Positions 49,908 to 60,412 of a stretch of 64,000 nucleotides of DNA are shown piece after piece. This DNA comes from Aliihoeflea aestuarii. GTDB lineage: Bacteria; Pseudomonadota; Alphaproteobacteria; Rhizobiales; Rhizobiaceae. The stretch lies in NCBI RefSeq assembly GCF_024105665.1, contig NZ_JAAAMK010000010.1, forward strand, positions 1-64,000, given 5' to 3'. A program made the position numbers and the translations under genes. The notes under the pieces are model-generated. The model had not been told where the DNA came from. It saw only the letters and a program-made list of their open reading frames with translations, and did no database searches. How positions within the stretch are numbered: position 1 is the first letter of the stretch; each line of letters starts with the position of its first letter.

Positions 49908-49984
<77 letters not shown>

Positions 49985-50325: not shown

Positions 50326-50402
50326 GGTCCCGTAGCTCAGATGGATAGAGCACCGGCCTTCTAAGCCGATGGTCGCAGGTTCGAATCCTGCCGGGATCGC
50401 CA
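50326..50402 (+). tRNA. tRNA-Arg (anticodon UCU)
   Basis: The 77-base gene has acceptor arms GGTCCCG and CGGGATC (one G-T pair), D-arm TAGCTCAGATGGATAGAGCA, anticodon stem CGGCC/... with loop CTTCTAA and anticodon TCT, T-arm CGCAGGTTCGAATCCTGCC and encoded CCA. It shares its T-arm with the neighbouring tRNA-Pro. Confidence 0.93.
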
Positions 50403-54963: not shown

Positions 54964-55239
54964 ATGGCCCCAGTCGAGAAGGTAAGCATTTCTCTGTCGT
55001 CCGAACTTGCCACCAGCGTGCGTGATGCGGTTGACACCGGCCGGTACGGCTCCGCCAGCGAAGTCGTCCGGGAGGCATTGCGCGAATGGAAGCAGCGCGA
55101 GCCTTTGCGCCGACTGGAAGTCGAACGTCTGCAAAAGGCGTGGCAAGAGGGAATCGAAAGCGGTGCTTCGCGGGCACTCGATATTGAAGAGATCAAACGA
55201 ACGGCACAAGCCAGGCTGCACGACGACAATCCCAAATGA
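54964..55239 (+). CDS. parD: ParD-type antitoxin (ribbon-helix-helix)
   Basis: The 91-residue antitoxin begins MAPVEKVSISLSSELATSVR, a ribbon-helix-helix N-terminus, with GRYGSASEVVREALREWKQR (second helix). Its C-terminal half (RLEVERLQKAWQEGIESG, ALDIEEIKRTAQARLHD) should wrap the toxin. GGAGA precedes the ATG by six bases. The stop overlaps the toxin start (ATGA, 55236-55239). Type II toxin-antitoxin module; class assignment to ParD/ParE is from sequence style. Confidence 0.88.
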   Translation: MAPVEKVSISLSSELATSVRDAVDTGRYGSASEVVREALREWKQREPLRRLEVERLQKAWQEGIESGASRALDIEEIKRTAQARLHDDNPK

Positions 55240-55520
55240 GGATTGTCCGTACACCGGCCGCCGAAACGGACCTCATCGACATCTGGATTTACATAGCGGC
55301 GGACAACATACCGGCGGCTGATCGTCTGCTCGATGCGATTGGTAACCGGATCGAGCAGTTGAAGAGCCATCCCTTTTCGGGCGCGGCACGCCCGGATATT
55401 GCGCCGGATGCGCGTCTCTTGCCTATTGGCAATTATGTGGTTCTCTACCGCGTAAGAGCAGACGCCGTAGAGATCGTTCGCGTGGTTCATGGGGCCCGCG
55501 ACGCATCGGCGTTATTTTAA
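55236..55520 (+). CDS. parE: ParE/RelE-superfamily toxin
   Basis: The 94-residue toxin has MRIVRTPAAETDLIDIWIYI, NRIEQLKSHPFSGAARPDIA, LLPIGNYVVLYRVRADAVEI and VRVVHGARDASALF, matching ParE toxins (gyrase poisons in studied cases). It is coupled to the antitoxin by a four-base overlap. Its last nine bases overlap the end of the convergent molybdopterin oxidoreductase gene, so read-through transcription would be antisense to it. Confidence 0.9.
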   Translation: MRIVRTPAAETDLIDIWIYIAADNIPAADRLLDAIGNRIEQLKSHPFSGAARPDIAPDARLLPIGNYVVLYRVRADAVEIVRVVHGARDASALF

Positions 55521-57617
55521 AGGCCTGACCCACACCTTCGTATCGTGGAACGCGGCGCCGCCATAGGGTGCGGCGGCGTCGGCGCCGACGAGGACGTTGA
55601 TCCCCTCGCCGCGCTCATGTGCGCCGTTCGGCCAGATGCCTTCGGCGATGACGACGCCGCGCTTGAGGCCGTCGAACAGCTTGGCGTGGAGTACGATTTC
55701 GCCCCGTCCGTTGCCGATTTCGACCCGGTCGCCGGTCCCCAGACCAAGCTCGGCAGCGTCGTCGGGGTGGAGGAGAAGTTCCGGCCGTCCTTCGCGCTTT
55801 CTCGATGTCGGCATCTCGGTGAACGAGGAATTGAGGAACGAGCGTGCCGGCGACGTCGCAAGCCGGAAAGGGTGCTGCGGATCGGCGCCTTCGATGAGTT
55901 CGACGTGATCGGGAAACTCCGGCAGGTCCGCGTAGCGTCCCATCAGGCCGATCGATTTCGGCGGCTTGGCGGGTGCGACCGTCCCCGTCCAGTCCGGCCT
56001 GAAGCGGAACTTGCCATCCTTGTGGCCAAAACCATTCAGGAAATGGGCGGTCTCGAAATCGGGCTGCATATCCGCCCAGCGTTCTTCGGCGAAGCTTTCG
56101 AACGTGCCGAGACCGCGCTTTTCGAGCATCTTGTCGATATGCTCGCGCTCGGTCAGGCCGAAGCCCGGCAGATCGGCGACGCCGAGGCGCTTTGCCAGTT
56201 CCTCGATGACAAAATGGTTGGTCTTCGGGCCTTCCGGCGCGTCGATCACCTTCGGCCCGAGGATTATGTGCTGCTGGCCTCCGCCGCGATAGATGTCGTC
56301 ATGCTCCAGAAACATGGTCGCCGGGATCACCACGTCGGCGAGCATGGCCGTATCGGTCATGAAATGCTCGTGGACGGCGGTGAAGAGATCGTCGCGCAGG
56401 AGGCCCTGCCGCACCAGACGCTGCTCCGGCGCGACATTGGCGGGGTTCGTGTTCTGGATCAGCATTGCCGTAACCGGCGGGCCACCATTCAGCGCCGACG
56501 CATCGTTGGTCAGGATCGCGCCGATGCGCGACTGGTCGAGATGACGGATCTTCGGGTCGAGGAAGCGCCGGCCTTCCAGATCGGTCTTGTCGAGCTTGAA
56601 GATGTCCGAGTTCGAATGAAATGCGCCGCCGCCCTCATACTGCCACGCGCCTGTGACCGAGGCGACGGACAGGGCCGCGTGCATGTTCACCGCGCCGTTG
56701 CGCGAACGGGTGAAGCCATAGCCGAGGCGGAAGAAGGTGCGCTTCGTCTCGCCGACGAGGCGCGCGAAGGTCTCGATCTCATCCACGGAAAGGCCAGTGA
56801 TCGCCGCCGCCCATTCCGGCGTCTTCGATACCAGATGCGCTTCCAGTCCTTTCGGGTCGTCGGTGTATTTTTCCAGATAGGCGCGGTCGGCGAGACCGTC
56901 GCGGAACAGAACGTGCATGACCGCGCAGGCGAGTGCGCCATCGGTTCCCGGCTTCAAAATCAGCGCCAGATCGGCCTGTTTCATCGTGGCGTTGTCATAG
57001 ACGTCGATGACGACGATCTTCGCGCCGCGTTCCTTGCGCGCCTTGATCGCGTGGGTCATCACATTGACCTGCGTGACCACCGCGTTCGTGCCCCAGATCA
57101 CCACGCAGTCCGACTTGGCCATCTCGCGCGGGTCGGGACCACGCAGCGCGCCCGCGCCCATCACCCAGCCCGTCCAGGCAAGATTGGTGCAGATCGTGTC
57201 GAAGAAGCCGGAATATTTCTTCGCGTGGCGCAGGCGGTGGATGCCGTCGCGCTGCACCAGCCCCATCGTGCCAGCGTAATAGTAAGGCCAGACCGCTTCG
57301 GAGCCGTCCTTTGCCTCGGCCGCCTCGAATTTCTCGGCGATCAGGTCGAGCGCGGCATCCCAGCTCGCCTCTTTCCACTTGCCTTCGCCCTTGGCCCCGG
57401 TGCGTACGAGTGGCTTCAAAAGACGGTCGGGATGATGGATGCGCTCGGCATAACGCGCGACCTTGGCGCAGATGACGCCATCGGTGTAGCTGTTGTCCTT
57501 CGCACCGTGGACACGGCCGATACGGCCATCGATCACCTCGACATCAAGGGCGCAGGTGGACGGGCAATCATGCGGGCAGGCCGAATGGCCGGTGCGGATA
57601 TTGGCGTGCTGGTTCAT
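55512..57617 (-). CDS. Molybdopterin-dependent oxidoreductase with [4Fe-4S] cluster
   Basis: This 701-residue protein of the DMSO reductase superfamily has the N-terminal [4Fe-4S] ligands C14, C18, C22 and C50 (CPHDCPSTCALDV, DGVICAKVARY). The molybdopterin domains include GAGALRGPDPREMAKSDCVV and NPANVAPEQRLV. The C-terminal dinucleotide-binding domain has LHPDDAAELGLGTGDRVEIG. It lacks a Tat signal, so it is probably cytoplasmic. No ferredoxin or membrane subunit is adjacent. Substrate unknown; formate dehydrogenase- or thiosulfate reductase-like subunits are possible. Confidence 0.9.
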   Translation of the reverse strand: MNQHANIRTGHSACPHDCPSTCALDVEVIDGRIGRVHGAKDNSYTDGVICAKVARYAERIHHPDRLLKPLVRTGAKGEGKWKEASWDAALDLIAEKFEAAEAKDGSEAVWPYYYAGTMGLVQRDGIHRLRHAKKYSGFFDTICTNLAWTGWVMGAGALRGPDPREMAKSDCVVIWGTNAVVTQVNVMTHAIKARKERGAKIVVIDVYDNATMKQADLALILKPGTDGALACAVMHVLFRDGLADRAYLEKYTDDPKGLEAHLVSKTPEWAAAITGLSVDEIETFARLVGETKRTFFRLGYGFTRSRNGAVNMHAALSVASVTGAWQYEGGGAFHSNSDIFKLDKTDLEGRRFLDPKIRHLDQSRIGAILTNDASALNGGPPVTAMLIQNTNPANVAPEQRLVRQGLLRDDLFTAVHEHFMTDTAMLADVVIPATMFLEHDDIYRGGGQQHIILGPKVIDAPEGPKTNHFVIEELAKRLGVADLPGFGLTEREHIDKMLEKRGLGTFESFAEERWADMQPDFETAHFLNGFGHKDGKFRFRPDWTGTVAPAKPPKSIGLMGRYADLPEFPDHVELIEGADPQHPFRLATSPARSFLNSSFTEMPTSRKREGRPELLLHPDDAAELGLGTGDRVEIGNGRGEIVLHAKLFDGLKRGVVIAEGIWPNGAHERGEGINVLVGADAAAPYGGAAFHDTKVWVRPLK

Positions 57618-57685: not shown

Positions 57686-58546
57686 TTGAACTATCGTCAC
57701 ATCTATCACGCCGGCAACTTCGCCGACGTCGTCAAGCATGTCGTGCTTGCGCGCACGATCGAATATCTGAAGCGCAAACCCGGCGCGTTCCGCGTGATCG
57801 ACACGCATGCCGGCATCGGCGTCTACGATCTTTCGTCACCGGAAGCGCAAAAGACCGGCGAATGGCACGGCGGCATCGGCAAATTACTGGACGCCGCTTT
57901 TCCCGCCGAGGTCGCCGCGCTTCTGGCGCCCTATCTGGGTGCGGTGCGCGCGGCCAACCTGAATGGCGGCCTGAAATCCTATCCGGGCTCACCGGCAATC
58001 GCGCGGCATCTGCTTCGCCCGCAGGACCGGCTGACGGCCATCGAAATGCATCCCGCCGACGCCAGAAGGCTGAAAGAGCGGTTCGCCGGCGACTATCAGG
58101 CCCGTATCATCGAACTCGACGGCTGGCTGGCGCTCGGCGCTCATTTGCCTCCGAAGGAAAAGCGCGGGCTCGTCATCGTCGATCCGCCTTTCGAGAAAGA
58201 GGGCGAATTCGAGCGCATCGCGGATGGGCTCATCAAGGCGCATAAGCGCTGGCCGGGCGGCACCTATCTGCTTTGGTATCCGATCAAGAACCGGCGCGCG
58301 GTCGCCGGCTTTCGCGAGACGCTGCGCAAGGCCGGAATTCCCAAGGTGCTGGACATCGCCTTTTCGATCCGCGCGGCCGGCGTAACGGAAAGCTTCGACG
58401 GGACGGGGATGATCGCGGTCAATCCGCCCTACCCGCTCGAAAATGAGCTTGGCGTGATATTGCCCGAGCTTTGCGGCCTTCTGGGCGAAGCGCCGGATGC
58501 TTCGTTCGATCTCGAATGGCTTGCCGGCGAGCATGTGCCATCTTGA
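57686..58546 (+). CDS. rlmJ: 23S rRNA (adenine-2030-N6)-methyltransferase
   Basis: RlmJ methylates A2030 of 23S rRNA. The 286-residue protein MNYRHIYHAGNFADVVKHVV matches the family start. It has FRVIDTHAGIGVYDL (SAM motif I), ARIIELDGWLALG and VIVDPPFEKEGEFE, the DPPY-type catalytic motif with Phe. The start is TTG 57686; an ATG start is not available in frame. The C-terminal part has FDGTGMIAVNPPYPLENELG. It diverges from the molybdopterin gene. Confidence 0.92.
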   Translation: MNYRHIYHAGNFADVVKHVVLARTIEYLKRKPGAFRVIDTHAGIGVYDLSSPEAQKTGEWHGGIGKLLDAAFPAEVAALLAPYLGAVRAANLNGGLKSYPGSPAIARHLLRPQDRLTAIEMHPADARRLKERFAGDYQARIIELDGWLALGAHLPPKEKRGLVIVDPPFEKEGEFERIADGLIKAHKRWPGGTYLLWYPIKNRRAVAGFRETLRKAGIPKVLDIAFSIRAAGVTESFDGTGMIAVNPPYPLENELGVILPELCGLLGEAPDASFDLEWLAGEHVPS

Positions 58547-58604: not shown

Positions 58605-59054
58605 ATGGCCAATATGCTTCGCCGCACCGGTGCGGCCTTCTTCACGGCAGCGGCCGTTCTCGTCGGCGCGCTGACGCATCAGGCCGCGGCCGCCGATATG
58701 GTGCGCGGCGTCTACGCCGCCGACCCCGGCGTTTGCGGCAATTCGCGCGTGCTCGGCTCGATCAGCTCGAAATTCGGCTATCAGGTGCGCCACGTCCCGA
58801 ACCTGCCGCAGGTCGGCATATCCGAGTTCCTGAACATCCGCGAGAACCGGTTCCAGCCCTCGCAGCCCGACTGGCCGATCGAGCGCCGCTACTGCCAGGC
58901 AAGCGTCTATCTGACCGATGGCTATACGCGTGACGTGTGGTATCTGATCGAGCATCCAATGGGCTTTGCGGGTATCGGCAGCAATGTCGAGTTCTGCGTG
59001 CTCGGTTTCGACCGCTGGAAGGTCTATGGCGGGAACTGCCGCGTCCTGCGCTGA
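58605..59054 (+). CDS. Small exported cysteine protein of unknown function
   Basis: The 149-residue precursor from MANMLRRTGAAFFTAAAVLV has a signal with cleavage near AAAAD. GGGGGA lies upstream. The mature part has four cysteines (PGVCGNSRV, RRYCQASVYL, VEFCVLGF, GNCRVLR), presumably two disulfides, and motifs VPNLPQVGISEF and DVWYLIEHPMGFAG. I do not recognise a family. Its last 29 bases overlap the start of the RNase T2 gene in another frame, implying coupled translation. Confidence 0.75.
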   Translation: MANMLRRTGAAFFTAAAVLVGALTHQAAAADMVRGVYAADPGVCGNSRVLGSISSKFGYQVRHVPNLPQVGISEFLNIRENRFQPSQPDWPIERRYCQASVYLTDGYTRDVWYLIEHPMGFAGIGSNVEFCVLGFDRWKVYGGNCRVLR

Positions 59055-59682
59055 CCGGCAGTTGCGTTTCGGGCCCGCCGCTCTCGTCGCAGCAACGCTG
59101 GCTCTTGCCGCTTGCGGCGATGAATCCGGACAGGACGACAAGCCGTTCGATTTCTACGTGCTCTCGCTCTCATGGTCGCCGAGCTATTGCGCGGCGGAAG
59201 GCACGCGGGCTGACCGCCAGCAATGCGATCAGGATCTGGGTTTCGTCGTTCACGGGCTTTGGCCGCAATTCGAGACCGGCTGGCCGGAATATTGCGACGA
59301 TGACGCGCCCCGCCCATCGCGACGACAGGTCGACGACATCGACGATGTGATCCCGTCTGACGGGCTGATCCGCCACCAATGGCGCAAGCACGGCACCTGT
59401 ACCGGTCTCGACATCGACGCTTATTTCGATGCGACGCGCGCGGCGCTCGACGCCGTCGCCCTTCCCCGACTGTCGCAGGACCGGCTGCCGGCCGCCTCAA
59501 TCCGCAGCGTGTTTCTCGACGCAAATCCCGGACTGCCGGAAGACGGCCTCGCCGTGACATGTTCCGACGGGCTTTTGCGGGAGGTTCGGCTGTGCATGAC
59601 GACGGAGCTGGCGTTTCGGTCCTGTCCCGAAGTCGCGCAACGGTCGTGCCGCCAGTCCGACCTTCGAATTCCGCGCATGTGA
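59026..59682 (+). CDS. Ribonuclease T2 family lipoprotein
   Basis: RNase T2 cleaves single-stranded RNA in the periplasm. The 218-residue protein from ATG 59026 (GGAAGG just upstream) has a lipobox LALAAC (Cys30), so it is predicted to be lipid-anchored. CAS1 is GFVVHGLWPQ (His76) and CAS2 is RHQWRKHGTC (His117, Lys121, His122). The usual glutamate of CAS2 (HEW) is Gln118 here. Four or more cysteines suggest disulfides. Start overlaps the previous gene by 29 bases. Confidence 0.9.
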   Translation: MAGTAASCADRQLRFGPAALVAATLALAACGDESGQDDKPFDFYVLSLSWSPSYCAAEGTRADRQQCDQDLGFVVHGLWPQFETGWPEYCDDDAPRPSRRQVDDIDDVIPSDGLIRHQWRKHGTCTGLDIDAYFDATRAALDAVALPRLSQDRLPAASIRSVFLDANPGLPEDGLAVTCSDGLLREVRLCMTTELAFRSCPEVAQRSCRQSDLRIPRM

Positions 59683-59751: not shown

Positions 59752-60348
59752 ATGCCGAGACTGCTCTATTCGCCCGCTTCCCCCTACAGCGCAAAAGTTC
59801 GGATGGCGGCCATCCATACCGGCTATGCGGTCAGCGCCGAAACCGTCGACACGAATGCCGATCCCGACGATCTCATCAAAGCCAATCCGCTCGGCAAGAT
59901 TCCCTGTCTCATCACGGATGACGGTCAGGGAATTTTCGACAGCCGCGTGATCATGCAGCATATCGGGCGGGAGACGGGCAATATTCTTTATCCGCGCAAC
60001 GCAGCCAAGCGGCTCGAGGCCGAGCGTCTCGAAGCGATCACGGACGGCATCTGCGACTGTCTTCTGGCCCATGTCTATGAGCGCCGGTTCCGGCCGGAGG
60101 AAAAAATCCACCTTCCCTGGCTCGAACGCCAATGGTCGAAGGTGACGCGCGCGCTCGACGAGTTGAACGAAAACCCGCCGAAACTGACGAAGAAGACGAC
60201 GGGCGGGCACATCGCGCTGCGCGCGACGCTCGGCTATCTGGCGCTGCGCTTCGACGGACAGTGGGAGCGTGGGCGCTCAAAGCTGACGCGCTGGGCCAAG
60301 CGTTTCGACGAACGCTTTCCCGAACTCGTCGAGGCACTTCCGAAATAA
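59752..60348 (+). CDS. Glutathione S-transferase family protein
   Basis: The 198-residue protein has an N-terminal thioredoxin-like domain, MPRLLYSPASPYSAKVRMAA, LIKANPLGKIPCLITDDGQG (the cis-Pro loop) and IFDSRVIMQHIGRETGN (Ser contacting the glutathione gamma-Glu). A helical C-terminal domain follows (SKVTRALDELNENPPKL, GHIALRATLGYLALRF). The catalytic Ser is likely in the N-terminal PYS stretch. Substrate unknown. A terminator follows at 60364. Confidence 0.9.
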   Translation: MPRLLYSPASPYSAKVRMAAIHTGYAVSAETVDTNADPDDLIKANPLGKIPCLITDDGQGIFDSRVIMQHIGRETGNILYPRNAAKRLEAERLEAITDGICDCLLAHVYERRFRPEEKIHLPWLERQWSKVTRALDELNENPPKLTKKTTGGHIALRATLGYLALRFDGQWERGRSKLTRWAKRFDERFPELVEALPK

Positions 60349-60363
60349 AGCATTCAAGAAAAG

Positions 60364-60392
60364 AAAAAGGCCGGCGAAATCGCCGGCCTTTT
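60364..60392. terminator. Bidirectional terminator between GST and omp genes
   Basis: AAAAGGCCGGCG and CGCCGGCCTTTT form a strong stem around AAAT. T-runs flank both sides, so it serves the GST gene (+) and the outer membrane protein gene (-). Confidence 0.88.
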
Positions 60393-60412
60393 CCGTTCAA
60401 TCCACGAGTGGA

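Follow-up and report, generated by a model that had tools for sequence, protein, structure and literature searches.

A gene for an apparently secreted four-cysteine protein usually adjoins one for an apparently exported RNase T2 protein in rhizobia and related bacteria

Where root-nodule bacteria and their kin carry the gene for a small, nameless and apparently secreted protein, here called the partner, it usually adjoins the gene for a protein of the RNase T2 family that also looks exported. The pairing is ancient and real, yet dissociable: the two genes have parted repeatedly, and the partner has stayed under constraint where the linked RNase is gone. The reading that we prefer, and to which we give about half of our confidence, is that the partner is a secreted binding protein in its own right, with an operon and a physiological setting in common with RNase T2.

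Results

The window, by which we mean the whole stretch of 64,000 nucleotides of Aliihoeflea aestuarii DNA that was analyzed (contig NZ_JAAAMK010000010.1), was examined by means of its open reading frames and Pfam matches. These place an rlmJ-like gene, the partner, the gene of an RNase T2-family lipoprotein and a GST-like gene one after the other on the plus strand (Table 1). The two central frames, 58605-59054 and 59026-59682, had been described in an initial annotation of this DNA, and both exist as described there. The gaps between the four genes are short, with 58 bases between rlmJ and the partner, about 7 (or an overlap of 29) between the partner and the RNase, and 69 between the RNase and the GST gene, which makes a single transcription unit likely. 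The order rlmJ, partner, RNase T2, gst is thus probably that of a tight unit, and the partner and the RNase T2 would be co-expressed from it. A promoter scan of the region found none. Three hairpins followed by a T tail, the kind of site to which the candidate terminator in Table 1 belongs, were found in the region, where chance alone would give 3.9.

Table 1. Features of the partner-RNase T2 locus, in coordinates of the window.
Feature	Position	Strand	Basis or remark
RlmJ-like 23S rRNA methyltransferase, first gene of the unit	57686..58546	+	PF04378, E 1.8e-66; same neighbor in many relatives
Partner, nameless protein of 149 aa, apparently secreted	58605..59054	+	Open reading frame; Cys 44, 97, 131 and 145; predicted fold cystatin-like
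Putative Sec signal peptide, partner residues 1-30 with QAAAA at its end	58605..58694	+	By eye
ATG first read as the RNase start, probably not the start	59026..59028	+	Inside the Tyr-Gly codons of the partner
RNase T2-family lipoprotein, favored start TTG 59062	59062..59682	+	PF00445
Lipobox LAAC of the RNase	59104..59115	+	By eye
CAS I, FVVHGLWPQ, with the catalytic His	59242..59268	+	RNase translation
CAS II, HQWRKHGTC; Gln (codon 59377-59379) replaces the Glu of active RNases T2	59374..59400	+	Aligned to HEW of RNase NGR3
GST-like (glutathione S-transferase) gene, last of the unit	59752..60348	+	PF13417, E 5.4e-14; neighbor in many relatives
14-bp hairpin with T tail, candidate terminator on the porin side	60363..60394	-	Between the convergent GST and porin genes

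Elsewhere in the window, genes for a ParD-like antitoxin and a ParE-like toxin (54964-55520) adjoin a molybdopterin oxidoreductase gene on the minus strand (55512-57617). Two tRNA genes (49908-49981 and 50326-50399) were the only Rfam matches of the window above the gathering score.

Read from the ATG at 59026, the RNase frame runs to 59682, encodes 218 residues and overlaps the partner frame by 29 bases, and this is the overlap that the initial annotation had reported. The arithmetic is correct for that start codon, but the codon itself is doubtful. It sits in the TAT GGC (Tyr-Gly) codons of the conserved C-terminus of the partner; it is present at this position in the window and in three of four relatives from the genus, and missing in the remaining one (L081). 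All five members of the genus have a TTG at +8 or +5 past the partner stop, which in the window is the TTG at 59062. These observations together suggest that the overlap of 29 bases probably does not exist; it would be an artefact of the choice of start codon, the actual gap being about 7 bases.

We then compared the 50 paired loci found among the best 80 of 397 partner loci. An ATG stands at exactly the equivalent place in 6 of them, and an in-frame start codon lies at +1 to +60 after the partner stop in 40. The RNase frame is closed ahead of the partner stop in 16, so that in these loci an overlap is impossible. In 28, however, a start codon in the RNase frame also occurs at the partner stop or ahead of it, and some loci may have a short overlap. 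The annotated RNase of S. meliloti Ak57 begins 14 bases past the end of the partner. The AAGG that had been taken for the ribosome site of the RNase is only 3 bases from the ATG at 59026, which is a short spacing, and no clear ribosome site was seen by eye ahead of the TTG at 59062 either. Tight coupling of the two genes, in line with the earlier idea that their proteins are made together, is still plausible.

The four cysteines of the partner (residues 44, 97, 131 and 145) do not vary among 54 aligned sequences, and its identity to Aliihoeflea relatives is 77-79%. An N-terminal export signal was seen by eye, over a stretch in which the confidence of the structure model is low. Judged from these sequence features, the partner would be exported and its cysteines may form disulfides. 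With the lipobox of the RNase, also seen by eye, both proteins look exported, in agreement with the initial annotation.

That annotation had recognized no family for the upstream protein, and we found none. Searches of the partner against Pfam, NCBIfam, PHROGs and PADLOC gave no family match, and none of the chaperone or thiol-disulfide families known to Pfam was found in it. When 23 aligned partner rows were scanned with Pfam, six families appeared, each in a single row and with a best E of 0.044, and none was convincing. A profile of the partner run against solved structures returned a single match (E 0.33), which was judged to be due to chance. Among the papers listed by literature searches (at most 20 for each search, and some searches too broad to tell much), none dealt with a pair of this protein and RNase T2, judging by titles and the opening lines of abstracts.

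An AF2 model of the mature partner (pLDDT 80.6, pTM 0.76) shows a short helix and a helix followed by four strands; the model of the full-length protein was poorer (pLDDT 72.3, pTM 0.66). Chains with the cystatin scaffold lead the comparison of the mature model with the PDB, at a Z of 6.9 over 83 residues and an rmsd of 2.8 Å, a Z under 8 being one that may reflect merely a common arrangement. Latexin, fetuin-B, cystatins, monellin and NTF2 are among the lower-ranked matches. Foldseek found nothing in the PDB at an E below 0.001, the best values being 0.57 for the mature model and 0.28 for the first model, and a viral structure library likewise gave no match below 0.001. The likeness to proteins of cystatin-like fold (Affimers, latexin, fetuin-B, cystatin C) consists, in the predicted model, of one helix on a four-stranded sheet, whereas no sequence relation to them was found. 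QxVxG is the inhibitory motif of cystatins. It was not seen when the partner sequence was inspected by eye, and we do not file the partner as a cystatin; the cystatin-like alpha/beta fold is weakly indicated by the model, and we take it as a lead.

The RNase exceeds the PF00445 cut-off (56.2 bits against 26, E 6.4e-15) and scores 52.9 bits with the NCBI RNaseT2Fam model, for which the cut-off is 250. It resembles the RNase T2 family, including E. coli RNase I, in the catalytic His of CAS I (HGLWP), in the His, Lys and Cys of CAS II (KHGTC) and in its apparent export; it differs by the lipobox and by Gln in place of the canonical Glu of CAS II. A lipobox-like motif is present in 37 of the 50 paired RNases from the best 80 of 397 loci. 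The CAS II Glu is described as important in RNase T2 enzymes, as Glu105 in the numbering quoted, in the relevant passage of one paper (PMC7399046), and its role is also taken up in a passage of another (PMC9266746). Given the Gln at this site, the protein is best filed, for now, as a homologue within the family and not as a canonical enzyme. Acinetobacter RnaA, an RNase T2-family protein described as lacking the catalytic histidines altogether and as likely non-catalytic (PMC10249906), is a related precedent, being an exported protein of a Gram-negative bacterium with a departing active site. The window's RNase differs from RnaA as so described in that it keeps the histidines of CAS I and CAS II, and only the Glu is changed.

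The residue at this site is variable among the type-A RNases. The 97 paired ones (L172 being counted as paired) have Gln in 70 cases, Glu in 26 and Met in 1, and the 13 lone ones have Glu in 9 and Gln in 4. On the tree, Glu, Gln and Met replace one another at least 19 times among 110 type-A rows, and such frequent switching between Glu and Gln suggests tolerance rather than loss of function. We considered whether the Gln is tied to the presence of the partner and rejected it, there being only 2-3 independent contrasts and a sign test that was not significant. Some linked RNases (L193, L179, L091, L144, L012 and L145) have Thr or Met at the position of the lysine in CAS II.

The RNase tree was built from 129 distinct rows with recognizable motifs, and it separates two subfamilies. 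In the order survey described below, the profile match begins at 1-2 in the 108 adjacent genomes with a listed range (that of G500 is not among them) and at 3-6 in the RNases of 25 unlinked genomes. The sampled RNases of the 3-6 type form a clade of 19 with a support of 1.0, set apart from the other 110 by a long branch, and CAS II has Glu in all 19 rows.

To follow the pair across genomes, we surveyed 249 genomes of the window's order (Hyphomicrobiales), which we call the order survey. The partner turned up in 134 of them, and 212 carry RNase T2. Genes were called adjacent when they lay within 1.5 kb of each other on one strand, small intervening genes being allowed, and by this definition an RNase T2 gene is adjacent in 109 of the 134 partner genomes. 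Judged by family codes, the adjacent pairs span 21 families, and the largest gap between their matched stretches is 673 bases (G556). In 92 of the partner genomes, the RNase lies downstream in 64, upstream on the same strand in 8 and elsewhere in 20; one of these 20, G500, has a second RNase that adjoins the partner and is counted as adjacent in the 109. The other 42 genomes were searched a second time, with an adjacent RNase in 36 and one elsewhere in 6. The places for four genomes of the order survey came from a second survey, that of relatives. There, 39 of 61 genomes carried the partner and 55 of the 61 had an RNase T2; the RNase was adjacent in 29 of the 39 partner genomes and not in the other 10. 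The conservation of the pair, which the initial annotation had proposed to check, was thus borne out in both surveys. A class-wide sample of 289 genomes yielded the partner in 4, namely in that of the window and in three more from its order, and within these surveys the partner is confined to that order. The order survey, the survey of relatives and the 80 best loci overlap, and their counts are not independent.

Each gene is also found without the other. The 25 remaining partner genomes of the order survey have no RNase at the partner, with G531 ambiguous since its partner lies at a contig edge. Within the best 80 of 397 partner loci, where an RNase T2 within about 3 kb was taken as linked, it is present in 50 and missing in 30. 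Of these 30 lone-partner loci, 28 are labelled Mesorhizobium, and all 30 genomes carry one RNase T2 match each, unlinked. In the opposite direction, 78 of the 249 order-survey genomes have RNase T2 and no partner match, and two genomes (G007 and G021) keep the RNase between RlmJ and GST, with the partner not found. A partner profile run on the first 80 loci detected no diverged partner near lone RNases, and an unfiltered profile run on 15 loci whose type-A RNase lacks a partner reached an E of 0.031 at best. The survey of relatives includes one genome, G009, in which the partner stands without any RNase T2. The initial annotation had offered the partner as a chaperone, inhibitor or partner of the RNase and had named as contrary evidence that either gene should commonly occur alone in relatives. 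This is what these counts show, and they do not support a dedicated or obligate role of that kind. In the order survey as a whole, kinship being ignored, RNase T2 is present in 134 of 134 partner genomes versus 78 of 115 partner-less ones. Where the pair is broken, the linked RNase has been lost or never arrived, an RNase of the other subfamily is found, and the partner has been retained.

In three loci, from genomes of one bacterial family, a lone partner is followed by the gene for a DUF1176 protein (L209:2307-4142, matched by Pfam; L210:1577-3076 and L215:2290-3812, assigned by eye), and in three others (L026, L027 and L064) an unlinked partner lies near purN-like genes, named by eye. In genome G454, a stop interrupts the frame of the linked RNase (L219:1737-2426) while the partner frame is intact.

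We examined whether the partner had changed in the lineages without a linked RNase. Of 40 positions that are at least 95% conserved in 51 paired partners, 39 carry the same residue in at least 95% of the 30 lone copies. The lone partners are under purifying selection, with a median dN/dS of 0.225 over 408 non-independent pairs; this is not comparable with the value of 0.427 for paired copies, as the two sets differ in divergence and their pairs are not independent. Co-variation was assessed from distance matrices for the 41 loci that had all four genes at sufficient length. The partial r between partner and RNase was 0.285, a value reached by 3 of 500 permutations, as compared with 0.573 between partner and GST (0 of 500) and 0.323 between partner and RlmJ (1 of 500); that between RNase and GST was 0.033 (167 of 500). 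Co-variation of partner and RNase exists, but it is not above that of the partner with its GST or RlmJ neighbors. The unchanged positions and the lack of any special co-variation argue against an interface reserved for the linked RNase, but they do not speak against every kind of link.

The flanking genes were compared as well. Neighbors encoding RlmJ, GST, a porin and a molybdopterin enzyme are likewise conserved at partner loci. In Methylobacterium bullatum (L166) and at L162-L164, rlmJ lies downstream, giving the order partner, RNase, rlmJ, and at L066 and L069 the pair is present with neither rlmJ nor gst within the 6 kb fetched. At five of the loci fetched (L201-L205), the RNase gene comes ahead of the partner gene. 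Reverse order was seen in 8 of the 109 adjacent genomes, and some adjacent pairs are without RlmJ or GST flanks.

Discussion

We propose that the partner is an exported four-cysteine protein that would act as a binding protein of the cell envelope, with a conserved job of its own. It would share its operon and its physiological setting with RNase T2, a setting that may be extracytoplasmic RNA or nucleotide turnover, and it would not serve the linked RNase as an obligate subunit, chaperone or inhibitor. The long-standing neighborhood of the two genes argues for such a shared setting. What speaks against a separate protein is the presence of some RNase T2 in every partner genome of the order survey, the partial correlation of partner and RNase, which few permutations reached, and the persistence of the pair through reorderings beyond what independent proteins need.

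That persistence also bears on an alternative in which the partner is a passenger and the linkage reflects only the slow rearrangement of a housekeeping cluster. The likewise conserved RlmJ, GST, porin and molybdopterin-enzyme neighbors fit this, as does a co-variation of the partner with GST and RlmJ that is at least as strong as with the RNase. However, the pair is kept where RlmJ lies downstream, where neither flank was found in the 6 kb fetched and where the order of the two genes is reversed; it outlasts its flanks, which is more than a pure passenger would need, and we consider this explanation unlikely. A role of the partner as a chaperone for the folding or the disulfides of the RNase appears very improbable. 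Both proteins look exported and hold cysteines, and the partner gene comes first, but no known chaperone or thiol-disulfide family of Pfam was found, RNases T2 without a partner are common, and the conservation of the partner continues after the linked RNase is lost.

A modulator of RNase T2 deserves more weight, although we still regard it as rather unlikely. Here the partner would be a periplasmic inhibitor or specificity factor for RNases T2 of either subfamily, and so could survive the replacement of a linked RNase by an unlinked one. The frequency of adjacency agrees with this, and the presence of RNase T2 in every partner genome of the order survey means that the partner may depend on an RNase T2 from one subfamily or the other. 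Many of the top structural matches are cystatin-type inhibitors, and a shared fold proves no function. Against a modulator stand the many genomes with RNase T2 and no partner match, the two units that lack the partner alone, the genome with a partner and no RNase T2, and a co-variation with the RNase that is not special. In addition, a long and supported branch lies between the RNase subfamilies, yet the conserved positions of the partner are constant. In a bolder form of this proposal, the partner would be a periplasmic protein of cystatin-like fold that regulates bacterial RNases T2 of both subfamilies, enzymes in which the catalytic residue has changed many times between Glu and Gln; this seems to us distinctly unlikely. 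We therefore return to a separate secreted binding protein as the preferred reading; a looser functional link to RNase T2 of either subfamily is possible.

Our analysis defines a protein family that belongs to a single bacterial order and is without a model in the four libraries searched. The lineages that keep the partner after loss of the linked RNase provide a natural experiment, and the clade of RNases T2 whose CAS II residue alternates between Glu and Gln (once Met) makes the need for this residue directly testable. The locus is also a corrective to the original idea about the pair, as adjacency here does not equal a dedicated inhibitor.
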